Shown here: piece after piece, positions 19,494 through 34,194 of the stretch
Layout: each line of letters opens with the position of its first letter
Numbering within the stretch: position 1 is the first letter of the stretch
DNA from: a virus
DNA: 43,291 nucleotides
Reading direction: 5' to 3' (one strand)
IMG/VR virus record: IMGVR_UViG_3300020051_000030
Location: 1-43,291 of that record
Program-made: the position numbers and the translations under genes
The notes under the pieces: generated by a model
Seen by the model: only the letters and a program-made list of their open reading frames with translations
Database searches by the model: none
Told to the model about the DNA's origin: nothing

Positions 19494-20099
19494 ATGAGCA
19501 ATCAATTATTATTTCCTGCAAATGGCGAACCAAATACAGCAATTGTACCAACAGAAAACAAGCTGCCGACATTATCAGATTTAATTGATGATATTGAAAT
19601 GGCTTATAAAAACGATGCCTTCAATGCATTAATGAACAATCAACCGCCTGCTAAATGGGTTTTGGAACATCCATTCATTAAGAATTATCGTTACATTCCA
19701 ATTGATAAAATTGAGCATCTTCTTAAAAAGATATTCAAGGCTTACAGAATTGAAATCACTGGTCAAGGAACTGCATTTAATGGCGTATGGGTAACGGTGC
19801 GAGTGCATTACTTTCATCCAATTTCAAATGAATGGCAGTATCATGATGGTATTGGTGCGGCACAATTGCAGACCGCTAAAGATACATCACCAGCAGACTT
19901 GGTTAATATCAATAACGGTGCATTATCAATGGCTTTCCCGATTGCAAAAACAGTAGCCATAAAGGATGCGTGTGACCACTTCGGTGTAATGTTTGGAGCA
20001 AATCTAAACAGAAAAGATACGGTCAACTTTACGGTTGATAACAACATCGTTGAAAAATACAACTTCATTAAATCAAACGCTGAAAAACTCAATAAGTAA
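19494..20099 (+). CDS. Rad52-like single-strand annealing protein
   Basis: A 201-residue protein with the core seen in phage single-strand annealing proteins of the Rad52/Sak type: WVTVRVHYFHPISNEWQYHDG on the strand side, then GIGAAQLQTAKD, and a helical MAFPIAKTVAIKDACDHFG ending close to the DNA-binding groove. It would anneal complementary single strands produced by the neighbouring exonuclease. It overlaps that gene by one base and is followed by a single-strand binding protein, giving a complete recombination module. The family is judged by pattern, not by search. Confidence 0.75.
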   Translation: MSNQLLFPANGEPNTAIVPTENKLPTLSDLIDDIEMAYKNDAFNALMNNQPPAKWVLEHPFIKNYRYIPIDKIEHLLKKIFKAYRIEITGQGTAFNGVWVTVRVHYFHPISNEWQYHDGIGAAQLQTAKDTSPADLVNINNGALSMAFPIAKTVAIKDACDHFGVMFGANLNRKDTVNFTVDNNIVEKYNFIKSNAEKLNK

Positions 20100-20773
20100 T
20101 GAAACGATACATATTTGAAACAGAAGAAGAATGGCTTAAAGCAAGGCTTGGGTTATTTACATCAAGCCAGGTTAATAAGCTAATGGCAGAACCAACAGCG
20201 GCAGAACGTAAAGCAGGTGAGCAATTAAGTAAGGGTGCAAAAACATACATTGATGAATGTATTGTTGGATTACTTGCAGCACCTGAAACACAATACTATA
20301 ACTCCGAAATGCAAAGGGGAAAAGATTTAGAGCCACAAGCGGTTTTTGAATTTGCAAAGCATTTAGGTAAATCGGTAAATGATGATGATTTCATTTATAC
20401 GTCCGTTGGTGGTATTGTATTCTTTACAGATGATGATGGTATTTATGGCGGAACTCCCGACATTATAATCGGCAATAAGATTGCTGAAATCAAATGCCCG
20501 AAGTCAATTACGCATCTTAAATACAGACGTTTAAAGACCGTTGAATCATTCAAAGATTCATGCCCTGAGTATTACGACCAAATACAACTAAACATTCATT
20601 TAACGGATGCTGAAAGCGCATGGTTTATTTCCTACGATGATAGATTCAAGGATGAATCAAAGCATTTGTTTGTATTGGATATTCCAAAGGATGAAGTCCG
20701 TATTAAGGAATTAATCAACAAAATAGAGATTGCATCCAATTACATGAGTAACTTATTAGAAATCGAACTATGA
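20099..20773 (+). CDS. YqaJ-type viral recombinase / lambda exonuclease-like nuclease
   Basis: A 224-residue nuclease of the PD-(D/E)xK superfamily: an N-terminal EEWLKARLGLFTSSQVNKL helix-turn typical of YqaJ, a charged MQRGKDLEPQAVFEF helix, and the catalytic core YGGTPDIIIGNKIAEIKCP carrying Asp and Glu-x-Lys, then YYDQIQLNIHLTDAE. It resects DNA ends to give single-strand tails for the annealing protein encoded just upstream. Confidence 0.9.
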   Translation: MKRYIFETEEEWLKARLGLFTSSQVNKLMAEPTAAERKAGEQLSKGAKTYIDECIVGLLAAPETQYYNSEMQRGKDLEPQAVFEFAKHLGKSVNDDDFIYTSVGGIVFFTDDDGIYGGTPDIIIGNKIAEIKCPKSITHLKYRRLKTVESFKDSCPEYYDQIQLNIHLTDAESAWFISYDDRFKDESKHLFVLDIPKDEVRIKELINKIEIASNYMSNLLEIEL

Positions 20774-20985
20774 CAATTCAGGAAACAGTAACGAAAGAAT
20801 TTAAACGTCGTAAAATCTTTAAAAAAGAGTTCGTAAGGCTTTGCAAAATCGAAGCAGAAAAGCGAGGTATTGCCTTTGATGATTCCGTTATCTACCGATT
20901 TTTAAAGGGTCATAACTCAACCTCCGTAGAGAAATTGGAAATCATGTGTAGGGTGCTAAATCTTGAATTAAAACCTATTAATTAA
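20770..20985 (+). CDS. Small helix-turn-helix protein
   Basis: A 71-residue basic protein coupled by ATGA to the exonuclease gene. The segment DDSVIYRFLKGHNSTSVEKL reads like the second half of a helix-turn-helix with a following helix. Probably a DNA-binding regulator of the early genes; the target is unknown. Confidence 0.6.
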   Translation: MTIQETVTKEFKRRKIFKKEFVRLCKIEAEKRGIAFDDSVIYRFLKGHNSTSVEKLEIMCRVLNLELKPIN

Positions 20986-21003
20986 TTCACTCAACAAATA
21001 ATT

Positions 21004-21384
21004 ATGAAGAAATTACAAATCATTGGCACAATTGGAGATGGTGCAAAAGAAAAAGAAACCAAAGGGGGCAAAAAGTTTGTTTCGTTTTCGGTTGCTATCA
21101 ACGAAAACTACAAGGACGCATCAGGCGAATGGGTCGACAAAACACAATGGGTTAACTGCCAACTTTACGGCGAAAAGGCGGATGCATCACGATTCACCAA
21201 AGGTTCTAAAGTCTATTGTGATGGCAAATTAGAAACGGCTATCTACGAAAGTAAAGTAATTTGGTACTTGACTGTAAATAATTTTGAAATTGTCAGCAAG
21301 GCAATACCATCGGCAACGGCTCAACAACCTGCTGCAAATCAAACAACTAAAGCTGATGATTTTGATTCTGAATTAGGTTTCTAA
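21004..21384 (+). CDS. ssb: Single-stranded DNA-binding protein
   Basis: A 126-residue OB-fold SSB. It has the usual start (KLQIIGTIGDGAKEKET), KFVSFSVAINENYK, TQWVNCQLYGEKAD and KGSKVYCDGKLE strands, a Gln/Ala/Thr-rich linker and the acidic tip DDFDSELGF used to recruit partners. It belongs to the recombination module and also serves replication. ATG 21004 follows an A-rich leader. Confidence 0.95.
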   Translation: MKKLQIIGTIGDGAKEKETKGGKKFVSFSVAINENYKDASGEWVDKTQWVNCQLYGEKADASRFTKGSKVYCDGKLETAIYESKVIWYLTVNNFEIVSKAIPSATAQQPAANQTTKADDFDSELGF

Positions 21385-22083: not shown

Positions 22084-22338
22084 ATGAAAAATCTACAAAC
22101 ACAATTTGAAAAGGTAATCATTTGGCTTGCGTTCAAAATGGATGCAGACCCTGTATTTCAAAAACGCATTGCCATTGCAGTGCTTGCTATAATTGCCATA
22201 TTCGGCATGATTTGCGGCTATCATATCTTTTATGCTGTATGTTGGATGGCTTGTAATGAACCTAAGCTATTTAGCAGCGCATTAGCCGTTATGGCAGTTG
22301 GTTTCTTTAGTTGGATTCTTTACACAGAAAATAAGTAA
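22084..22338 (+). CDS. Two-span membrane protein at the left edge of the array
   Basis: An 84-residue protein with hydrophobic spans (IAIAVLAIIAIFGMICGYHIF and ALAVMAVGFFSWILY) [each one helix]. Its TAA stop is part of the R'' box of the first attC-like site. No matching R' box is found upstream, so it is either the first cassette with a decayed left end or a resident gene captured by the array. Function unknown. Confidence 0.6.
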   Translation: MKNLQTQFEKVIIWLAFKMDADPVFQKRIAIAVLAIIAIFGMICGYHIFYAVCWMACNEPKLFSSALAVMAVGFFSWILYTENK

Positions 22339-22463
22339 CGGCAAAATATTGGCGAATGGCGGGATTTGTAGCACTAGTGTTGATAGTAGCACAAATGATG
22401 GATGAGCCACAGATTTTGATAGTATCAGGTATGCCCGCCTTTTGCCAATATATTGTTGGCGGT
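22333..22463 (+). other. attC-like site 1
   Basis: R'' ends AGTAAC at 22339; R' is GTTGGCGGT from 22455. Arms CAAAATATTGGCGAA and TTTTGCCAATATATTG are closely complementary, with GGCGGG/CCCGCC inside. The arms are nearly the same as those of sites 10 and 13. Confidence 0.85.
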
Positions 22464-22505
22464 TCGTGCCGGATTATTAAAACGAAATTTTAAATTAACA
22501 ACAAA

Positions 22506-22898
22506 ATGAAAAAATACAGAATTGAATTATCAGAGCAACAAATGAGATTGATTGCTGATTGCCTTGAAGATGTTTCAAGGTTTGCGTCAGGGCAATGGGA
22601 AATGAGATACACCATTGAAGAGATGTTAAGAGGGTTGCCATTTGACGAGCAGATGAAAAGACGTGATGAAGTAGAAGATTTGTTAAAACAAGCTAAAAAG
22701 TTATTGTTACCTAATTTTCCAGATAATGCAAGTAAAGGTTACAATGGGAGTGAATTTATTGGTAACACTTACCAAATTTACAGAACCATACTACACCAAC
22801 TCGCAAAGGATAACGACTGGAATAATGTCTATTCTTCGTCTGCTTTGCCGAGTGGTAATTTAGGGATAATTAAAATTGAAGAGGTTGATGTGTCGTAA
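22506..22898 (+). CDS. Cassette A protein, hypothetical
   Basis: A 130-residue protein (IELSEQQMRLIADCLEDVSR near the start). The leading helix followed by LEDVSRFASGQWEM is a pattern I have seen in small phage hypothetical proteins, without known function. The cassette runs from TTGGCGGT (22456) to ACTGCCAA (22910). The start follows an A-rich AACAACAAA leader. Confidence 0.65.
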   Translation: MKKYRIELSEQQMRLIADCLEDVSRFASGQWEMRYTIEEMLRGLPFDEQMKRRDEVEDLLKQAKKLLLPNFPDNASKGYNGSEFIGNTYQIYRTILHQLAKDNDWNNVYSSSALPSGNLGIIKIEEVDVS

Positions 22899-22902
22899 CA
22901 TT

Positions 22903-23036
22903 ACTGCCAACGGCTACGGTTATGTGCAGTAGCTGATTTAGAAGCACAAAAATAAATATAAATACAAATGTTTAACCGAAGCAAAAATGTTCAAATAACC
23001 ACTGAACAGCCTCTTTTGGTTAGGTGCTGTTATAAG
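22903..23036 (+). other. attC-like site 2
   Basis: R'' ACTGCCAAC at 22903-22911; R' GTTATAAG at 23029-23036. The arms (CTACGGTTATGTGCAG side and CTCTTTTGGTTAGGTGCTG side) pair poorly, so this site is recognised mainly by its boxes, spacing and position. Confidence 0.7.
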
Positions 23037-23064
23037 ACGTTTTTCTTCACAAATTTCTAATAAA

Positions 23065-23295
23065 ATGAAAATACACGGTAAAGAATTAGAAAGCCACGAT
23101 TATGGTAGAATTATTTATTACGACAATAGGCTTATAAGGTCTGAAAGTCAAAAAATAAATACACACACAGATTTTGAATATTGGAAAAAAAGAATTGAAG
23201 AAACACCTGATTTTTGTGCTTGCAAAGCTGGTGGATTTTTTGACAGATTTCCGCATCTTGTTTGTAAAAAAGAACATTGTAAGAATGGCGTCTAA
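23065..23295 (+). CDS. Cassette B protein, Cys-rich hypothetical
   Basis: A 76-residue protein with CACKAGGFFDRFPHLVCKKEHC at its C-terminal third [cysteines spaced C-x-C...C...C], possibly a zinc-binding knuckle. Cassette ends TTATAAG/CTTATAA are perfectly complementary. Function unknown. Confidence 0.6.
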   Translation: MKIHGKELESHDYGRIIYYDNRLIRSESQKINTHTDFEYWKKRIEETPDFCACKAGGFFDRFPHLVCKKEHCKNGV

Positions 23296-23300
23296 AATGA

Positions 23301-23437
23301 CTTATAACGTTCTCGCAGATTGCCGATGGCGGGGACTTAGAACCACAAATGTTCGACTTAACAACAAAATTTAATAATATGCAGAAACCAACAATTAAAC
23401 ACGAAAACCCCGCTATTGGCAATGTGCTGTTATGCCC
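23301..23437 (+). other. attC-like site 3
   Basis: R'' CTTATAAC at 23301-23308; R' GTTATGCCC at 23429-23437. Arms GCAGATTGCCGATGGCGGGG and CCCCGCTATTGGCAATGTGC are strongly complementary. The spacer contains ATG codons that open the frame of the next cassette gene. Confidence 0.9.
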
Positions 23438-23861
23438 AGTGCTTACTTGGGAACACCTATCAATTTATCTTCCTTACGGATTGGAAGTTATGGTTGATTG
23501 GAAAATGATTGGCGTAAATAATTCAAGTGCTAGTATTTTTAATATTTCTGAAAATGGATTTGATAGGCATTTTAATTATGCTATGCAAAACGGTGTAGTT
23601 AAAATATTTGGATTACGCCCAATGTCAGAACTTACAAGAGATGAAGCATACAGATTGGTTAATGATAACCATAAGTTCAAATTTTGGTATCATAAAAATG
23701 GAAACGAAGAGTATATCCATCACGAAGGTTATTCGTCAAAGGATTACATAGATATGAATACGTTGCCATATAATGTTAGAAAACAACTTGCTGAATGGAA
23801 GTTTGATTTTCTCGGACTTATTGACAAAGGATATGCTGTCAATGTTAACGATGTAGCTTAG
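23379..23861 (+). CDS. Cassette C protein, conserved-looking hypothetical
   Basis: The frame begins in the spacer of attC site 3 (ATG 23349 or 23379); the cassette itself starts at 23430 and offers only GTG 23439. The protein core (LTWEHLSIYLPYGLEVMVDW) resembles a family common in Bacteroidota phage and mobile-element genomes, with a replicated small-repeat style body and C-terminal helix. The stop precedes R'' by a few bases. Ends TTATGCCCAGTGC and GCATTGGGCATAA agree at 12 of 13 positions. Function unknown. Confidence 0.6.
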   Translation: MQKPTIKHENPAIGNVLLCPVLTWEHLSIYLPYGLEVMVDWKMIGVNNSSASIFNISENGFDRHFNYAMQNGVVKIFGLRPMSELTRDEAYRLVNDNHKFKFWYHKNGNEEYIHHEGYSSKDYIDMNTLPYNVRKQLAEWKFDFLGLIDKGYAVNVNDVA

Positions 23862-23865
23862 CATT

Positions 23866-23994
23866 GGGCATAACGGCGGGGTGTTGCTGTCAGTAGCAGA
23901 AATTAATAACTAAAAGTTGAGTCATGGACAAAAGTAAAATAGAATTAGAAAAGACGATTTATGTACGTCAGCCGCTATTGCAGCAAAGCAGTAT
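23866..23994 (+). other. attC-like site 4, degenerate
   Basis: R'' GGGCATAAC at 23866-23874. The expected R' GTT is replaced: AAAGCAGTATGTTGCC begins near 23985 and corresponds to GGCAATTACTGCT at the other end of the cassette. Arms pair weakly. Probably a decayed site no longer able to recombine. Confidence 0.6.
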
Positions 23995-24145
23995 GTTGCC
24001 TTTCATGGTAGCAGTTGGGATGGCAATACAATTTAAGCAATGGTGCGATAATCACGCATGGGAGGAAGATTATAGAGAGCAACGAACACATCCAACTGGT
24101 GAATTGTTTAACATTTGGAACAGGCTTCATGGCAATTACTGCTAA
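23924..24145 (+). CDS. Cassette D protein, hypothetical
   Basis: A 73-residue frame whose first ATG (23924) lies in the spacer of the upstream site; ATG 23993 (MLPFMVAVGM) is the first inside the cassette and may be the true start, giving 50 residues. The segment KQWCDNHAWEEDYREQR is polar and rich in aromatics. Its TAA is within the R'' box TGCTAAC. Function unknown. Confidence 0.5.
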   Translation: MDKSKIELEKTIYVRQPLLQQSSMLPFMVAVGMAIQFKQWCDNHAWEEDYREQRTHPTGELFNIWNRLHGNYC

Positions 24146-24233
24146 CGTATTGGGGCTTTGCGCTGCCTCTTTAGATAAACTTTAAAACAGCGCACCAACT
24201 GTCCAGCGGTGGCGCAAAACCGCTGTTATCGGT
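24137..24233 (+). other. attC-like site 5, short class
   Basis: R'' TACTGCTAAC at 24137-24146; R' GTTATCGGT at 24225-24233. Arms GGGGCTTTGCGCTGCC and GGTGGCGCAAAACCGCTG pair well. At 97 bp it is one of four short sites. Confidence 0.85.
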
Positions 24234-24256
24234 TCGGTGCGGTAATTGAAACGAAA

Positions 24257-24442
24257 ATGATAATTGATAAAGAAGAAATTGACAACCCTGCAACGCATAC
24301 AAGATGTAAGTGCGGAATCACATACTTTGATTTAGATGAAAATCCCTGCCTTGCTTGCGATTGTGTTTTTTTTCGTGAATATGAGCGTCATAGATTTGGA
24401 GATGATGATGATTTTGAGCAGTCAGATAGCACTGACCGATAA
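24257..24442 (+). CDS. Cassette E protein, Cys-rich
   Basis: A 61-residue protein from ATG 24257; an earlier in-frame GTG lies in the attC arm. It has RCKCGITYFDLDENPCLACDC, a four- to five-cysteine pattern typical of a small zinc ribbon, and an acidic tail. Its TAA is embedded in R'' (CGATAAC). Function unknown. Confidence 0.6.
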   Translation: MIIDKEEIDNPATHTRCKCGITYFDLDENPCLACDCVFFREYERHRFGDDDDFEQSDSTDR

Positions 24443-24569
24443 CGGTATCTGCTTTGCGAAGTGGCGGTTTTGGAACACCACAGCTTCAATATAGCACTAC
24501 CGTTGATTAGAATTACAAGGGTTCAAATTAGCACTTCACCCGCCATTTTGCAAAGCAAGTGTTAGCGGT
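24435..24569 (+). other. attC-like site 6
   Basis: R'' ACCGATAAC at 24435-24443; R' GTTAGCGGT at 24561-24569. Arms TATCTGCTTTGCGAAGTGGC and GCCATTTTGCAAAGCAAGTG are strongly complementary. Confidence 0.9.
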
Positions 24570-24613
24570 TCGGGCTTCTCCGCTTTTAGAAGTCCAAAAA
24601 CAAATTTTATAAA

Positions 24614-24922
24614 ATGGAAAATCATTTAGAATTGAGCAAAAACTTAAAGCTCACACACATTGACGAAAACAACTGGAAAGATGGTAAGCTAATCGCAGTT
24701 GTTTTATACTTTACTTTTTTTGGTGAAGATGGAATTGCTTATGTAGTAATTGACAAACTTGATGGAGAATATCCAAGCTATGCTATGACAGAAATGTGCA
24801 GTGAGCTTTCAGATAGCTTTAATGAGCAAATTGAAAATGAGGACAATTGGAATAAAATTGTTTTGGCTATCAAAGAATATGTAAAAGAGTGGTATGTCGA
24901 AAATGCGGAGGATGTGTCATAG
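24614..24922 (+). CDS. Cassette F protein, acidic hypothetical
   Basis: A 102-residue acidic protein (LKLTHIDENNWKDGKLIAVV, and AIKEYVKEWYVENAED at the end). A small alpha/beta fold without recognised motif. Cassette ends TTAGCGGT/ACCGCTAA are perfect complements. A-rich leader before ATG. Confidence 0.6.
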   Translation: MENHLELSKNLKLTHIDENNWKDGKLIAVVLYFTFFGEDGIAYVVIDKLDGEYPSYAMTEMCSELSDSFNEQIENEDNWNKIVLAIKEYVKEWYVENAEDVS

Positions 24923-24926
24923 CCTG

Positions 24927-25062
24927 ACCGCTAACGGTTTGGGGCTTGTAGCAGTAGGGGATTTTGAAAGACTACTGCTCAATACACAACAAAAGCTGAT
25001 TAGAACTACACAGCTCAATTAAAGCATTTCTGCCCCTATTGCTACAAACCCTTGTTAGCGGT
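24927..25062 (+). other. attC-like site 7
   Basis: R'' ACCGCTAAC at 24927-24935; R' GTTAGCGGT at 25054-25062. Arms GGGGCTTGTAGCAGTAGGGG and CCCCTATTGCTACAAACCC are strongly complementary. Here the two boxes of the site do match each other, because cassettes F and G share the same R sequence. Confidence 0.9.
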
Positions 25063-25103
25063 AGGTTTTATTAAATCAAGGGTTAATTTTAAAAATATTC
25101 AAA

Positions 25104-25355
25104 ATGGAAGCAAAAAAGAAAGCAGTCCAATTAGTAAAAATAACTTTTGAAAAAGTTGCAAATGCTTCTAATTACAAAGGCGTTCAAAAAGATGGAGGGA
25201 AGCAATTTGGTATTATTGAAGATTTGTCTAAGAAAATCGCAATTGATTTTGTAAATGAAATGATTAAAGAATTTGAAAAGTCAGACAGTATATATGCAAC
25301 TAATTTTCTCACTAACTATTGGAAAGAAGTCAAGTCGGAAATTATTAGTCTTTAA
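25104..25355 (+). CDS. Cassette G protein, hypothetical
   Basis: An 83-residue helical, Lys-rich protein (AVQLVKITFEKVANASNYKG). No motif recognised. Cassette ends TTAGCGGTA/TACCGCTAA are perfect complements. Confidence 0.6.
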   Translation: MEAKKKAVQLVKITFEKVANASNYKGVQKDGGKQFGIIEDLSKKIAIDFVNEMIKEFEKSDSIYATNFLTNYWKEVKSEIISL

Positions 25356-25359
25356 ACTT

Positions 25360-25461
25360 ACCGCTAACGTTTTGCGGCTTGGCGTATGTGCCGCTTGTAG
25401 AAATGTAAATTATTAACCACAAATGCTTATTGCGGCATTACGCTAAACCGCTGTTAGGCAT
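25360..25461 (+). other. attC-like site 8, short class
   Basis: R'' ACCGCTAAC at 25360-25368; R' GTTAGGCAT at 25453-25461. Arms TTGCGGCTTGGCGTATGTGC and GCATTACGCTAAACCGC pair well. Length 102 bp. Confidence 0.9.
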
Positions 25462-25479
25462 CTGTAAAAATTACGACTT

Positions 25480-25761
25480 ATGGAACGAATATCTATTCAT
25501 GAATTTAAAACAAAAAGACTAAAAAAATACTACGGAGCAAGTAAGCAGGTATATCGAAAAAGCCACGTTGAAAAACTCCTTTCTATGTGGAATGATTTAC
25601 ACTACTTAACCGAATTAAGTACAAGAACAAGATTAGTTCCTTGTAATGAGGAGTTTTTGAATAAGAAGGCAATACCCGCTTACAACTCAACATTGAAAAG
25701 GTTACAAGAAAAGTATCCTGACATAAAGGAGTTTCATTATTTCAAACCGATATGCAAGTAA
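25480..25761 (+). CDS. Cassette H protein, basic hypothetical
   Basis: A 93-residue strongly basic protein (FKTKRLKKYYGASKQVYRK), helical through HVEKLLSMWNDLHYL. A DNA-associated role is possible but no family is recognised. Ends TTAGGCA/TGCCTAA are complementary. Confidence 0.6.
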   Translation: MERISIHEFKTKRLKKYYGASKQVYRKSHVEKLLSMWNDLHYLTELSTRTRLVPCNEEFLNKKAIPAYNSTLKRLQEKYPDIKEFHYFKPICK

Positions 25762-25769
25762 TTTTTATT

Positions 25770-25908
25770 GTGCCTAACGTATTGGGTATTGCCGTTCGTT
25801 GCGAATTTAATAGAACAAACTTTCAAAAACAGATAAAATATGAATACAGAACAAAATTCTCAAAATAGCACAGAAGCCCGCAATGACGGCAATACTGTGT
25901 TACCTGCC
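25770..25908 (+). other. attC-like site 9
   Basis: R'' GTGCCTAAC at 25770-25778; R' GTTACCTGCC at 25899-25908. Arms GGGTATTGCCGTTCGTTGCG and CGCAATGACGGCAATACTG are strongly complementary. The spacer supplies an ATG for the next cassette. Confidence 0.9.
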
Positions 25909-26043
25909 GTACCTGATTTAACTAAGGTGTGGGAACAGATTATAGAAAAATACGATGGTTATCCAGCAGAAAGAGATAAATATTGCGATGCTGTTTGGTT
26001 ACTTGAAAAAGGTGGATTTATTCAATTAAAGTTTGGTATTTAG
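25840..26043 (+). CDS. Cassette I protein, hypothetical, frame opens in upstream attC
   Basis: A 67-residue frame with ATG at 25840 in the spacer of site 9, so its first 20 residues are encoded by attC sequence. The only candidate start within the cassette is GTG 25927. The remaining part (VWEQIIEKYDGYPAERDKYC) looks like a real small protein. Cassette ends TTACCTGCC/GGCAGGTAA are perfect complements. Confidence 0.5.
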   Translation: MNTEQNSQNSTEARNDGNTVLPAVPDLTKVWEQIIEKYDGYPAERDKYCDAVWLLEKGGFIQLKFGI

Positions 26044-26047
26044 GTAT

Positions 26048-26184
26048 GGCAGGTAACGGCAAAATATTGGCGAAGGGCAGGAGAAATAGCACTACTGATG
26101 AGTTATGTAGGAATGCTGCCAAAAGTGCAAATGCTCATTCTAATTACCGTCAGCCTGCCTTTTGCCAATATATTGTTAGCTGCC
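26048..26184 (+). other. attC-like site 10
   Basis: R'' GGCAGGTAAC at 26048-26057; R' GTTAGCTGCC at 26175-26184. Arms AAAATATTGGCGAAGGGCAGG and CCTGCCTTTTGCCAATATAT are strongly complementary and almost equal to sites 1 and 13. Confidence 0.9.
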
Positions 26185-26245
26185 GTTTTCGTCAAGCTAT
26201 AACCTGACAAAACAATTAAAAAAGTAAAGTTAAAACCTGACAAAT

Positions 26246-26521
26246 ATGGATAACGAAAAAATAGAATTAAGCCAGCGTAAAATTATCGAGGCAATAGAGC
26301 ATGAATTGTCTTTAGAAGATGAATTTTACAAACCTCAATCAATGTTTCATAGCGTTTGGTTCTTCCCTGAACGAGGAATGTTTATGTATGCCGATTGCCT
26401 TGTTAGGCACGAAGTAATACGGCCGCTAATTGAAAACAAAACACTTGTTTTTAAAGGAGTAGAAAAGCATCAAGGGGAACTAATGCCGAGATATGTTCTG
26501 TCGTCTGCAAATGGCAGCTAA
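26246..26521 (+). CDS. Cassette J protein, hypothetical
   Basis: A 91-residue protein (IELSQRKIIEAIEHELSLED, then VWFFPERGMFMYADCLVRHE) with helical start and a strand-rich body. Its TAA lies within R'' (GGCAGCTAAC), so the cassette has no 3' untranslated space. A-rich leader of 60 bp. Function unknown. Confidence 0.6.
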   Translation: MDNEKIELSQRKIIEAIEHELSLEDEFYKPQSMFHSVWFFPERGMFMYADCLVRHEVIRPLIENKTLVFKGVEKHQGELMPRYVLSSANGS

Positions 26522-26648
26522 CGGTATGGGTATAAACGAAGGCGGCATGGTAAACGGTGCAATGTCCCGAAAGGTTGAAATCACCTTAAATAGTGCGGTT
26601 AGTCTCGTTCAGACGTTGCAGCCGCTTTTGTTTATACCTTGTTATAAG
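26513..26648 (+). other. attC-like site 11
   Basis: R'' GGCAGCTAAC at 26513-26522; R' GTTATAAG at 26641-26648. Arms GGTATGGGTATAAACGAAGG and GCTTTTGTTTATACC are strongly complementary. Confidence 0.9.
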
Positions 26649-26746
26649 TCTGGTGGCGGTTGGAGTGGTAAATGTTCAGAGACTGGCGAAGTAACCATAA
26701 CGCTATGTGGTATGAAGAACAGTAACCACCGCCACTTGCTTATAAC
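26642..26746 (+). other. Cassette K, about 105 bp, no substantial ORF
   Basis: Bounded by TTATAAG and CTTATAA, and its termini extend further as an inverted repeat (GGTGGCGGTT and AACCACCGCCAC). The only frame of note is a 17-codon one at 26672-26725 (MFRDWRSNHNAMW...). It could be an empty cassette, a regulatory or RNA cassette, or a deletion remnant. Confidence 0.6.
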
Positions 26747-26840
26747 GGCAAAGTGTTTGTGTCAGGCGGGCATAAACACAAACTAAATATTAATCAGCAA
26801 GCTGTCCGCCCGCTTGCACAAACACAATGTTATATGCAGC
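26739..26840 (+). other. attC-like site 12, short class
   Basis: R'' CTTATAAC at 26739-26746; R' GTTATATGCAGC from 26829. Arms AAAGTGTTTGTGTCAGGCGG and CCGCTTGCACAAACACAA pair well. Length 102 bp. Confidence 0.9.
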
Positions 26841-26857
26841 CGCAAAACGAAACTAAA

Positions 26858-27076
26858 ATGGATTACTATTTTGCAATGTTCAATTGCCACAAAAATAATG
26901 CACTTGAAAAAACTTGCAATAAGTTCAAAGAAATATGGACTGACAAAAAATTTGAAAGTAAAATACAGCCAATAATTGAAGCTGGTGTAATGTCTATTTT
27001 TCAAGAAAAACCAAATAAATATACTAAATTTTTTGTTTTTTACAACCGAGATATTGTCAACGGAGAACGGTCTTAG
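26858..27076 (+). CDS. Cassette L protein, hypothetical
   Basis: A 72-residue protein from ATG 26858 (MDYYFAMFNCHKNNALEK), the first A-rich-led start after R'. ATG 26834 inside R' is an alternative. Helical, basic, with aromatic-rich C-terminus (KYTKFFVFYNRD). Ends TTATATGCA/TGCATATAA are perfect complements. Function unknown. Confidence 0.55.
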   Translation: MDYYFAMFNCHKNNALEKTCNKFKEIWTDKKFESKIQPIIEAGVMSIFQEKPNKYTKFFVFYNRDIVNGERS

Positions 27077-27080
27077 CGGT

Positions 27081-27216
27081 TGCATATAACGGCAAAATAT
27101 TGGCGAAGGCAGGGATTAGAAGTACTACTGCCGATGTCAGCACAAAAGTTTAATAAGTGTACTTCTGTTGGTTTAAGCACATCAGCCCTGCTTTTGCCAA
27201 TATAATGTTGGGCGTA
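27081..27216 (+). other. attC-like site 13
   Basis: R'' TGCATATAAC at 27081-27090; R' GTTGGGCGTA at 27207-27216. Arms AAAATATTGGCGAAGGCAGGG and CCCTGCTTTTGCCAATATAA are strongly complementary; shared with sites 1 and 10. Confidence 0.9.
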
Positions 27217-27225
27217 GTTTTTCTT

Positions 27226-27366
27226 ATGGACGAATTAACAATTTTGAAAAATCAGGTTATAATGATGCAAGCCCTAATGTGCATCAATGAATTGCCTAAT
27301 CAGATGATAAAGCAACTTAGGGAACAAATTTTATTTACAGAAGCAAGAATTAGGGCGTTTTCGTAA
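27226..27366 (+). CDS. Cassette M, 46-residue protein
   Basis: Starts at ATG 27226 (MDELTILKNQVIMMQALMC), just 10 bp after R'; a longer frame from 27157 would run through the attC arm. Wholly helical with heptad-like spacing, perhaps a small coiled coil. Ends TTGGGCGTA/TACGCCCAA are perfect complements. One of the smallest cassettes. Confidence 0.5.
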   Translation: MDELTILKNQVIMMQALMCINELPNQMIKQLREQILFTEARIRAFS

Positions 27367-27369
27367 AAT

Positions 27370-27506
27370 TACGCCCAACGTTTGACGGTATGAAATCGGT
27401 TGGACTGCGATGCTCTGACCTATCAAAATACCACAATGCTTGCAACGGGCTAAAATGCTCGAATAACCACGTTTGCCCAACTGTTTTATACCGTGTGTTG
27501 TGCGTA
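27370..27506 (+). other. attC-like site 14
   Basis: R'' TACGCCCAAC at 27370-27379; R' GTTGTGCGTA at 27497-27506. Arms TTTGACGGTATGAAATCGG and AACTGTTTTATACCGTGTG are complementary. Confidence 0.9.
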
Positions 27507-27541
27507 CGTGCTTTATTATTAATCTTTTAAAATATATTAAA

Positions 27542-28183
27542 ATGAATACTTACAGCAAATTTGTACCAAATGTTTTTCTTGCAAAATGTACCGAAAAACA
27601 CGAAAAAGGAGAAACTATCCAAATTGAAACAAAATACGGCAAAGAACACGATTGCATCGTATTTAATTTAATAGCCGAAAAGGACGGGTTTTATTATTAC
27701 TCAATTGTTCGGGCTGATGGATTTAACCAGCAAGAATGGGCAAAGAAAAAAGCCGAAAGACTTCAAAATGCTGCCTTAAATGCAGAAAAGAAAAGCGATA
27801 GCTATTGGAAAGCATCAAATGAGGGAGCTGATTTTCTCGCACTTGGAGAACCAATAAAAGTTGGACACCACAGCGAAAAAAGACATAGAGCCTTAATTGA
27901 ACGCAATCATAACAGAATGAGTAAAGCCGTTGAACTTTCAAAACAGGCAGAAGGATATGAAAGCCGTGTAGCTTATTGGGCTGCAAAAGCTAAATCAATA
28001 AATCTTTCAATGCCTGAAAGTTTAGAGTTTTACGAGTTTGAACTTGAAAAAGCAAAGGCAAAACATGAAGGACTTAAAAACGGGACTATTGAAAGAAGTC
28101 ATTCGTATTCTTTGACTTATGCAAAAAAAGAGTTAAATGACATTGAGAGTAAGCTGAAACTTGCACAACGGCTGTGGTCTTAG
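27542..28183 (+). CDS. Cassette N, DUF3560-type protein
   Basis: A 213-residue protein. Its central segment (LGEPIKVGHHSEKRHRALIE followed by NRMSKAVELSKQA) is the hallmark of DUF3560, a domain found in plasmid and phage proteins of unknown biochemical role. The N-terminus has a small beta region with a Cys and the C-terminus is a long Lys/Glu/Ala-rich helix. ATG 27542 is chosen over an earlier frame start at 27473 within the attC arm. Ends TTGTGCGTA/TACGCACAA are perfect complements. Confidence 0.75.
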   Translation: MNTYSKFVPNVFLAKCTEKHEKGETIQIETKYGKEHDCIVFNLIAEKDGFYYYSIVRADGFNQQEWAKKKAERLQNAALNAEKKSDSYWKASNEGADFLALGEPIKVGHHSEKRHRALIERNHNRMSKAVELSKQAEGYESRVAYWAAKAKSINLSMPESLEFYEFELEKAKAKHEGLKNGTIERSHSYSLTYAKKELNDIESKLKLAQRLWS

Positions 28184-28186
28184 CAT

Positions 28187-28288
28187 TACGCACAACGTTT
28201 TCGGGCTTTGCGTAGTAGCCCTTAGAATAAACTTAAAATTAACCACGACACTTGATAGGGCTATTACGCAAAACCCTTGTTATGTGCC
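28187..28288 (+). other. attC-like site 15, short class
   Basis: R'' TACGCACAAC at 28187-28196; R' GTTATGTGCC at 28279-28288. Arms CGGGCTTTGCGTAGTAGCCC and GGGCTATTACGCAAAACCC are strongly complementary. Length 102 bp; the best textbook example in the array. Confidence 0.95.
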
Positions 28289-28303
28289 GTTTTTATTTGG
28301 AAT

Positions 28304-28846
28304 ATGAAGAAATATCAAATAATATATGCAGACCCAGCTTGGTTATATCAATGTGGTAAAAATCATTTAGCTAAAAAAAGTATGATAAATGGTAAGACAG
28401 ACATACACTATGACGCAATGCCTATAAAAGAAATGGAACAAATGAAAATAAACGAAATAGCTGATAATGATTGCTTACTGTTTATGTGGGTTACATCTCC
28501 ATTCCTTAAAATAGGCATTGATTTAATGATAAAATGGGGCTTTGATTTTTCGACTATTGGTTTTGTGTGGTATAAAGAAAAAATAAATCCAGGTTCTTAT
28601 ACGCTTTCAGAATGTGAAGTTTGTTTGATAGGTAAAAAAGGTAAAATACCAACACCAAGAGGAGCAAGGAATGTAAAGCAATTTTTATCAGAAAAAAGAA
28701 CAAAACATTCAGCAAAACCAAACGAAATAAGAAACAGGATTTTTCAAATGTTTCCAACACAAAACAAGATAGAATTGTTTGCAAGAGAAAAGCACGAAGG
28801 TTGGGATGTTTGGGGAAATGAAGTTGAGAGTAGTGTCACTCTTTAA
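28304..28846 (+). CDS. Cassette O, MT-A70 family adenine methyltransferase
   Basis: A 180-residue protein of the MT-A70 group (N6-methyladenine in DNA or RNA). Visible: YQIIYADPAWLY with the DPxW catalytic motif (DPAW in place of DPPW), CLLFMWVTSPFLKIGIDLM, GFDFSTIGFVWYKE and a C-terminal HSAKPNEIRNRI, then KIELFAREKHEGWDVWGNE. In phages these may mask restriction sites. ATG 28304 is chosen; an in-frame alternative at 28277 lies in attC. Ends TTATGTGCC/GGCACATAA are perfect complements. Confidence 0.9.
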   Translation: MKKYQIIYADPAWLYQCGKNHLAKKSMINGKTDIHYDAMPIKEMEQMKINEIADNDCLLFMWVTSPFLKIGIDLMIKWGFDFSTIGFVWYKEKINPGSYTLSECEVCLIGKKGKIPTPRGARNVKQFLSEKRTKHSAKPNEIRNRIFQMFPTQNKIELFAREKHEGWDVWGNEVESSVTL

Positions 28847-28849
28847 AAT

Positions 28850-28988
28850 GGCACATAACGTTTTCGGGGCTTTGCGATGGTGGGGCTTCGGAGTACAAAT
28901 GTTCAATTAATTACAAAAGTTAAATAGATGCAGAAAAGTTTAAATATAGCACAAATGCCCCACTATTGCAAAACCCTTGTTAGGCGTA
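28850..28988 (+). other. attC-like site 16
   Basis: R'' GGCACATAAC at 28850-28859; R' GTTAGGCGTA at 28979-28988. Arms CGGGGCTTTGCGATGGTGGG and CCCACTATTGCAAAACCC are strongly complementary. The spacer resembles that of site 3 (ACAAATGTTC then ATGCAGAAA) and carries the ATG that opens the next frame. Confidence 0.9.
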
Positions 28989-29722
28989 GTGTTTTGTTTC
29001 ACGATGATTGTTTTAATATCCTTTCAAATATAGAAAGTGAAAGTGTTGATTTAATCCTTTGTGATTTGCCTTATGGAACAACAAAAAACAAATGGGATAG
29101 TACAGTTCCACTTGACAAACTTTGGGCTGAATACGAACGGATTATTACTTACAACGGTGCAATAGTTTTATTCGCTCAAACTCCTTTTGATAAAGTATTA
29201 GGTGCAAGTAAAATTGATTTATTGAAGTATGAATATGTATGGAATAAAAAACGTCCTACTGGTTTTTTTAATGCAAATTATGCACCTATGAAACAACACG
29301 AAAATATTTTAGTATTTAGCAAAGCAAGTGCTTGTTTTGTAAAAGATAAATCAAAAGCGATGAATTACTATCCAAGAGATTTGCAAGAGGTAAATAGAAA
29401 TATAAAAAGGACTGCTCAAAATGGAAATTATGATGGTTCTCATTACAAATTAGAAAGCAACCAAAAATTTACTAACTATCCAAAAAGTATTTTAGAATTT
29501 GCTCCTGAAACTGGATTGCACCCAACTCAAAAACCGTTATCATTATTAGAGTATTTAGTTTCTACTTACTCAAATGAGAATGATATTGTTTTAGATAATT
29601 GTATGGGTTCAAATACAACTGGTTTAGCTTGTCAAAGGTTAAATCGTCAATTTATAGGCATAGAAAAAGAAAAAGCGTATTATGATATTTCAGTCAAACG
29701 TCTGTCGGAAACGCTGTTCTAA
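28928..29722 (+). CDS. Cassette P, DNA methyltransferase (beta-class, N4 or N6)
   Basis: A DNA methyltransferase with motif IV (LILCDLPYGTTKNKWD, DLPY in place of DPPY) ahead of the TRD region, then HPTQKPLSLLEYLVSTYS and motif I-like VLDNCMGSNTTGLACQRL, the order of beta-class enzymes. Residues 1-22 come from the upstream attC spacer and arm; cassette-only translation would use TTG 28994, where the core begins LFHDDCFNIL. Probably protects phage DNA from restriction. The cassette ends TTAGGCGTA/TACGCCTAA are perfect complements. Confidence 0.85.
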   Translation: MQKSLNIAQMPHYCKTLVRRSVLFHDDCFNILSNIESESVDLILCDLPYGTTKNKWDSTVPLDKLWAEYERIITYNGAIVLFAQTPFDKVLGASKIDLLKYEYVWNKKRPTGFFNANYAPMKQHENILVFSKASACFVKDKSKAMNYYPRDLQEVNRNIKRTAQNGNYDGSHYKLESNQKFTNYPKSILEFAPETGLHPTQKPLSLLEYLVSTYSNENDIVLDNCMGSNTTGLACQRLNRQFIGIEKEKAYYDISVKRLSETLF

Positions 29723-29725
29723 CAT

Positions 29726-29735
29726 TACGCCTAAC
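29726..29735 (+). other. Terminal attC half-site (R'' only)
   Basis: TACGCCTAAC completes cassette P, but no L'', L' or R' follows. A second R''-like CGCTAAC lies a few bases on (29740-29746). The array was probably truncated here by deletion, which removed further cassettes. Confidence 0.75.
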
Positions 29736-30001: not shown

Positions 30002-30184
30002 ATGACAATAGTATCAGCAATAAAGACCAACGGCAGCATGACAGTTGAGCAAATCATGGACATCGTAAAGCGCGATGTAGGAATACTAAAACGTGAACTG
30101 GCGCAGCTTGAAATATCGGGGGCGGTTAAATTCGATGGCTTCAGATATTCGTATAATCCTCGATGGAAATTAAGATATTCTTAA
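30002..30184 (+). CDS. Small winged-helix-like protein, paralogue of the 34012 gene
   Basis: A 60-residue protein whose body (GSMTVEQIMDIVKRDVGILK, then SGAVKFDGFRYSYNPRWKLR) matches the protein at 34012-34194 over nearly its whole length. The pattern (helix, KR recognition-type helix, beta wing) suggests a small winged-helix regulator. The two copies lie either side of the replication genes. Confidence 0.65.
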   Translation: MTIVSAIKTNGSMTVEQIMDIVKRDVGILKRELAQLEISGAVKFDGFRYSYNPRWKLRYS

Positions 30185-33863: not shown

Positions 33864-34034
33864 ATGATGAAAAAACTTGTAATTACAATAACATTGGACA
33901 AAAAAGGTAATATGTCAACCACATTTGAAGCCAATAATATTGAGACACATGAAGTTGTTGGCATGTTAAGAATGGCAGAAAACAGTTTTTTGAACAATAA
34001 AAATCAATCTAATGACACTTTGCCAAATACTTAA
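33864..34034 (+). CDS. Small hypothetical protein, two-strand/helix type
   Basis: A 56-residue protein starting MMKKLVITITLDKKGNM, then EVVGMLRMAENSFL helix and a polar tail. The strand-strand-helix layout is frequent in tiny Bacteroidota phage proteins. It starts 8 bp after the previous gene and overlaps the next by 23 bp. Function unknown. Confidence 0.6.
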   Translation: MMKKLVITITLDKKGNMSTTFEANNIETHEVVGMLRMAENSFLNNKNQSNDTLPNT

Positions 34035-34194
34035 ACAACATGGAAGCATGACCGTTGAACAAATCAAGGTCTATGCCAAACGAGATATTGAAACGATTAA
34101 ACGTGAACTCATGCAGATTGAAGTAGCAGGGGCTGTTAAGTTTGATGGTTTTAGATGGTCTTATAATCCACGATGGAAACTTAGATATAATTAA
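34012..34194 (+). CDS. Small winged-helix-like protein, paralogue of the 30002 gene
   Basis: A 60-residue protein matching the one at 30002-30184 (shared GSMTVEQI, GAVKFDGFR and YNPRWKLRY). A gene duplication around the replication module is the likely origin. Probably DNA-binding; targets unknown. Confidence 0.65.
   Translation: MTLCQILKQHGSMTVEQIKVYAKRDIETIKRELMQIEVAGAVKFDGFRWSYNPRWKLRYN

Follow-up and report, generated by a model that had tools for sequence, protein, structure and literature searches.

How does a phage in which no integrase is found come to hold an array of integron-like gene cassettes, and what might move them? The question is raised by positions 22333-29735 of a 43,291-nt viral contig (IMG/VR record IMGVR_UViG_3300020051_000030, positions 1 to 43,291; this whole stretch is referred to below as the window). 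Here 16 same-strand imperfect palindromes of the form AAC...GTT, each 84-126 nt long, make up a ~7.4-kb array with one rightward open reading frame (ORF) per unit, the exception being unit 11, which spans ~100 bp and holds no ORF. Outside the array the contig is a phage of the Bacteroidota type, encoding TerL, a portal protein, SSB, DnaB and a YqaJ-type exonuclease. The original prediction, made from the sequence alone, saw in this locus an integron-type cassette array within an otherwise complete phage contig and supposed that such phages may capture and shuffle cassettes. As detailed below, the attC-like sites, the phage setting and the exchange of units are borne out, while a link to the integron integrase IntI and the assumed order of gene and site within the cassette are not. 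We favour, with a probability of roughly 0.78, the reading that the array represents a phage-borne branch of a Bacteroidota integron-like cassette system that relies on a recombinase without the IntI-specific insertion (the insertion-less recombinase) and keeps its own pool of reversed cassettes.

The presence of an attC-like hairpin array in this phage is confirmed. A pairing-rule scan yields 12 sites scoring at least 26 in the array and none elsewhere in the window, with 0.05 expected from dinucleotide shuffles of the array. A covariance model of the family, our own rather than that of IntegronFinder, was built from 22 hairpins (14 from the window and 8 from elsewhere; window sites 2 and 4 were excluded) and recovers all 16 window hairpins on the plus strand at 45.9-119 bits, the two untrained sites included. 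At 14 of the 20 predicted stem pairs both sides are altered with pairing kept, and the paired R and L boxes of attC sites are therefore present by both the model and covariation. Single-strand folding is better than all 200 shuffles at two of the seven tested sites and clearly not so at two others; because folding beats shuffles at so few sites, covariation and the unit register described below are the stronger evidence. By eye, 3 of the 15 R' boxes strictly fit GTTRRRY, and a search of Rfam returned no match. A dispersed palindromic repeat family of the repetitive extragenic palindrome (REP) type was considered and rejected: the L arms differ by compensated changes and the ends of units follow those of the ORFs, so that the scenario of identical cores unrelated to ORF boundaries, named beforehand as fatal to the prediction, does not hold.

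In integrons, the start of a cassette is complementary to its own R''. Comparing the start of each unit with its own end over seven outer positions of 15 units (105 bases), we found complementarity at 96 of the 105, against a permuted mean of 50.7 (standard deviation 5.8); none of 100,000 permutations reached 96, and pairing within sites amounted to only 55. Since the start of a unit pairs with its own end and not with the neighbouring unit, the units have moved as circles. Both ends of the array coincide exactly with AAC cores.

What travels with the gene is the hairpin to its left. The unit of cassette 10 recurs on a second viral contig, L005, and on L012, which comes from Sphingobacteriales bacterium TSM_CSM 87, with the same left hairpin and a different right neighbour; like that of the window, both of these arrays stop at an AAC core, beyond which the DNA is unrelated. 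Deposited phages yield no match to the cassette 10 protein. Across 13 pairs of homologous viral units on different contigs, identity is 0.82 for the left hairpin and 0.38 for the right one, against a background of 0.44, and left exceeds right in 13 of 13, the pairs being non-independent in that several come from one gene family. The left hairpin being kept and the right one not, the mobile unit therefore consists of a hairpin and the gene on its right-hand side. This co-travel, together with the comparison with chromosomal arrays below, overturns the gene-then-attC order that had been assumed. The array functions like an integron cassette array, and with 16 sites and no integrase in the window it falls under the definition of a cluster of attC sites lacking integron integrase (CALIN; two or more attC sites and no intI in the vicinity); a classical integron it is not, for there IntI is accompanied by cassettes of a gene followed by attC.

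Which enzyme accompanies these hairpins in cellular genomes? In 396 genomes sampled from Bacteroidota, the phylum to which TSM_CSM 87 belongs, the hairpin model matches 176 (44%), often as long same-strand arrays. IntI (TIGR02249) is present in 107 and overlaps with hairpins in 36 genomes, with 47.6 expected (odds ratio 0.54). Above the TIGR02249 cut-off it is present in 105 genomes (27%), a share far higher than published IntegronFinder counts for Bacteroidetes suggest. Several arrays end beside another tyrosine recombinase, which matches TIGR02249 in two pieces and stays below the IntI cut-off (best 207-211 bits versus 265); an intI gene above that cut-off and bearing the IntI-specific insertion, as integrons have, is not what is found there. 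Boxes I and II lie 86-94 residues apart in the array recombinase (median 91), compared with 133 in IntI (six measurable proteins) and 92-102 in Xer. At E <= 1e-50 the insertion-less recombinase occurs in 110 of the 396 genomes, 95 of them with hairpins versus 48.9 expected (odds ratio 16, p 1.8e-26; the genomes are related to one another, and p values for association overstate certainty). Hairpins are found in 30 of 40 recombinase neighbourhoods, with the recombinase to the right of 91 of 92 sites in the reading direction of the window. In control neighbourhoods they are found in 2 of 20 for IntI, all at no more than 27.5 bits, and in 0 of 30 for Xer. At 13 of 13 loci examined, the sequence expected to open the first unit, namely the complement of that unit's R'', is found 69-257 bp from the recombinase, with 10 of 10 bases matching at 10 loci; the AT-rich stretch before the first unit may be attI.

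In a tree of 82 proteins the recombinase family joins IntI apart from Xer (100/99). IntI forms one clade (100/100), whose placement inside or beside the recombinase family is unsettled (family monophyly 49/78), and all cellular members of the family come from Bacteroidota. The catalytic residues appear intact on inspection by eye, many members bear an additional N-terminal region, and the best NCBIfam match is NF040815 (XerA_Arch). In two viral contigs (L004 and L251) the same array end bears a recombinase from the wider family; these two could alternatively be ordinary phage integrases. Three further loci deserve mention. In TSM_CSM 87, L015:565-2185 encodes a 540-aa family recombinase that is truncated by the contig end and whose N-terminal half has a HARP-like match, and L031:1388-1525 is a solitary family hairpin (97.8 bits) between chromosomal genes with no evident array. 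Positions 9400-11900 of L079 (genome G194) hold a genuine Bacteroidota IntI integron with a different attC type (AACAAGGCGTTTTAAATCGG...) and the normal gene-then-attC order.

Arrays of the hairpin family occur in many other viral contigs, and their polarity sets them apart. Of the chromosomal arrays, 36 had a call: genes are oriented opposite to the hairpins in 35 (130 of 142 units) and along them in one; in viral arrays they run with the hairpins in 67 and against them in 3, with 4 tied (181 of 193 units; p 2e-23 at the level of arrays). The viral contigs were mostly found through a hairpin pattern that is blind to gene direction, and direction was taken from the longest ORF, so that a few calls may be wrong. 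The window obeys the viral polarity in 14 of 15 called units, and units in viruses are the shorter ones (median gap 368 versus 827). As read from these sequences, phage cassettes are reversed relative to chromosomal cassettes of the same hairpin family. Two weak IntI-linked arrays place the integrase on the same side of the array, from which the canonical attC direction would be the reverse of the one in which the window is read here.

Do phages exchange these units? Cultured Flavobacterium phages of strains LMO6 and LMO9 carry ~10-15 family hairpins with reversed polarity and 3-5 DNA methyltransferase genes. Around the array, phages mumin6-1 and mumin6-3 share 99.9% identity, the difference being a single unit of 506 bp delimited by TAACG on either side; mymlan6-1 and snork9-1 share units in a changed order; filifjonk9-1 has additional terminal units; and tooticki6-1 has a different terminal unit ahead of the same flank. 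All 13 breakpoints examined lie no more than 7 nt from an AAC core. On genome comparison, the differences among these phages are best described as loss or gain of units plus reordering, in good agreement with the supposed capture and shuffling of cassettes by phages of this kind. The expectation that related phages hold different cassettes at one locus was likewise borne out in this cultured set, and not among relatives of the window phage, which offer no alignable site. According to the paper describing these phages (PMC7077304), some LMO9 phages plate less on LMO6, coinciding with the lack of a specific methyltransferase, the gene for which is not assigned to a cassette; the words integron and cassette are absent from that paper. 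In the Polaribacter phages Freya_1 and Freya_10 (L358 and L359) we noted a possibly different cassette type: the ten Freya isolates vary in length by as much as 4.9 kb, additional small genes lie directly upstream of a gene resembling an integrase, and there is a single weak partial hairpin match.

The features of the window array are as follows; every hairpin is a covariance-model match, and its first coordinate is that of its AAC.

22337..22457, + strand: hairpin 1, distal array end; R'' at the stop of phage gene 22012-22338; 100.2 bits
22506..22898, + strand: cassette 1 ORF, 130 aa, no assigned family
22909..23031, + strand: hairpin 2, degenerate; 52.9 bits, outside the training set
23065..23295, + strand: cassette 2 ORF, 76 aa
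23306..23431, + strand: hairpin 3
23379..23861, + strand: cassette 3 ORF, 160 aa; ATG within hairpin 3
23872..23997, + strand: hairpin 4, degenerate; 45.9 bits, outside the training set
23924..24145, + strand: cassette 4 ORF, 73 aa; start within hairpin 4
24144..24227, + strand: hairpin 5
24257..24442, + strand: cassette 5 ORF, 61 aa counted from ATG
24441..24563, + strand: hairpin 6
24614..24922, + strand: cassette 6 ORF, 102 aa
24933..25056, + strand: hairpin 7
25104..25355, + strand: cassette 7 ORF, 83 aa
25366..25455, + strand: hairpin 8
25480..25761, + strand: cassette 8 ORF, 93 aa
25776..25901, + strand: hairpin 9
25840..26043, + strand: cassette 9 ORF, 67 aa; start within hairpin 9
26055..26177, + strand: hairpin 10; 117.6 bits
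26246..26521, + strand: cassette 10 ORF, 91 aa; the unit recurring in L005 and L012
26520..26643, + strand: hairpin 11, followed by the ORF-less unit
26744..26831, + strand: hairpin 12
26858..27076, + strand: cassette 12 ORF, 72 aa counted from ATG
27088..27209, + strand: hairpin 13
27226..27366, + strand: cassette 13 ORF, 46 aa counted from ATG
27377..27499, + strand: hairpin 14
27542..28183, + strand: cassette 14 ORF, 213 aa, DUF3560 (PF12083, 4e-39)
28194..28281, + strand: hairpin 15
28304..28846, + strand: cassette 15 ORF, MT-A70 family methyltransferase
28857..28981, + strand: hairpin 16; 119 bits
28928..29722, + strand: cassette 16 ORF, N6_N4 DNA methyltransferase; first ATG within hairpin 16
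29726..29735, + strand: lone R''-type end TACGCCTAAC of the last unit, adjoining TTATCGCTAACAGC; AAC at 29733-29735; proposed attI-side array end

The cargo thus comprises two DNA methyltransferases (MT-A70 and N6_N4), one DUF3560 protein and small proteins for which no informative family match was obtained; among the cassettes tested, PADLOC finds only methyltransferases, and there is no other defence or counter-defence match. Hairpins 3, 4, 9 and 16 contain the start codons of their cassette genes and may have an extra role as leader or promoter. The terminal R''-type geometry at 29726..29735 is also seen in L004, L005, L012 and the mumin phages, and nothing resembling attI was seen in the window beyond the terminal AAC junction at 29735. 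Immediately upstream of the hairpins, 19494-21384 encodes a single-strand annealing protein (SSAP)-like protein, the YqaJ-type exonuclease and SSB. The SSAP-like protein is shared at 65-70% identity by three array-bearing viral contigs (L229, L231 and L320), weak relatives that have the SSAP/exonuclease region in common with the window and their arrays at sites that do not align; L003 and L008 have a YqaJ-like gene near their hairpins. Searches of IMG/VR with the helicase and TerL returned no relatives of the window phage.

How might such a system work? We propose that the mobile unit, one attC-like hairpin with the gene on its right, bounded at the AAC core, would be excised as a circle by recombination of two AAC/GTT cores. 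Catalysis would fall to the insertion-less sister of IntI, supplied by host chromosomes (and carried by a few phages, that of the window not among them), and would presumably act on folded single strands. Insertion would take place at one end of the array, into an attI-like junction, on the 29735 side in the window. The window phage, having no recombinase, would presumably be served in trans, and capture would then depend on the host or a co-infecting element. Phages may retain units whose gene points to the attI-side end, such that genes are read with phage transcription, which could account for the reversed polarity. The cargo of small proteins and DNA methyltransferases would be exchangeable between phages and probably serves against host restriction.

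Several observations weigh against this proposal. Some hairpins fold no better than shuffles; 81 of the 176 hairpin-bearing genomes have no recombinase match at the cut-off used; no recombinase lies in the window, though a missing contig end might hide one; and the searches turned up no close relative in which the site is empty or holds other units. The breakpoints at cores could also partly reflect homologous recombination between similar hairpins, though L arms usually differ. Taken further, such recombination might shuffle the units without any site-specific recombinase, and the exonuclease, SSB and the SSAP-like protein, the last of these conserved in further array-bearing phages, are encoded close by. 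We consider this improbable, given the unit register, the restriction of breakpoints to a short TAACG core between hairpins with differing L arms, and the recombinase linked to chromosomal arrays.

Another origin, that of an ordinary CALIN in which a fragment of a host IntI array was taken up by illegitimate recombination and is now passive and decaying, would fit the lack of an integrase in the window and the two degenerate sites (2 and 4), and CALINs in phages are already known from Qi et al. 2023 (PMC9892861). It is nevertheless unlikely: host chromosomal arrays of this family show the opposite gene polarity, IntI shows no association with the hairpins, the array begins and ends exactly on AAC cores, comparable arrays are present in many further viral contigs, and units pass from phage to phage. 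Mobilisation of phage units by host IntI-type integrases or XerCD, in place of the insertion-less recombinase, draws on Polaribacter phage P12002L, which has two matches to our hairpin model and one attC of which was recombined by IntI1 in the same report, the link being made at the level of the phage. With a negative genome association with IntI, IntI neighbourhoods devoid of the hairpins except for weak matches, and none near Xer genes, this is very unlikely, and host IntI was dropped as the explanation of the array. The phage-borne branch with an insertion-less recombinase hence remains our preferred reading, and we lean towards the wider view that Bacteroidota harbour a second, IntI-independent integron lineage in which this recombinase acts on the hairpins and phages run a compartment of reverse polarity, exchanging methyltransferases and small genes.

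Like the IntI integrons, sedentary chromosomal and mobile, the system has single-gene units, AAC/GTT attC-like hairpins, a unit register and, in its chromosomal relatives, a tyrosine recombinase at the array end beside an attI-like junction. It departs from them in the missing insertion, the rarity of GTTRRRY boxes, a stem with a one-by-one mismatch instead of a clear extrahelical base, and the phage gene on the other side of the hairpin. With XerA, XerC and XerD the recombinase shares the catalytic family and the absence of the insertion; it differs in forming a clade separate from Bacteroidota Xer, in the added N-terminal region of many members and in the hairpins nearby. The phage CALINs are alike in being integrase-free attC arrays in virulent phages with DNA methyltransferase cargo, P12002L belonging to both sets, and carriage by a phage is thus not new in itself. 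The main example there has few sites (TJE1, with 3 attC), and neither the polarity rule nor the insertion-less recombinase nor differences in cassettes among sibling phages appear in the part of that report consulted. In the open-access literature, a scope that leaves out most subscription journals and all preprints, we found no paper describing a system of insertion-less recombinase and reversed cassettes. IntegronFinder 2.0 reports almost nothing in Bacteroidetes (PMC9024848), compared with the 44% matched by the hairpin model, and standard surveys would therefore miss this family. The change from a Xer-like double-strand recombinase to an enzyme of folded single-strand attC is credited to the IntI insertion (I2 helix) (PMC7790495); for this reason, how an insertion-less recombinase handles the hairpins is the main question. 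A related lineage without the insertion, tied to attC-like arrays, would open the origin of integrons to tests with living enzymes. Phages would gain from it a modular route for swapping DNA methyltransferases and further small genes, and Flavobacterium LMO6/LMO9 with the mumin phages form a cultured, published set in which both the array and plating differences are recorded.

Elsewhere in the window, the replication genes are flanked by 30002-30184 and 34012-34194, two paralogous ORFs of 60 aa (MTIVSAIKTNGSMTVEQI... and MTLCQILKQHGSMTVEQI...) whose C-termini are nearly identical.

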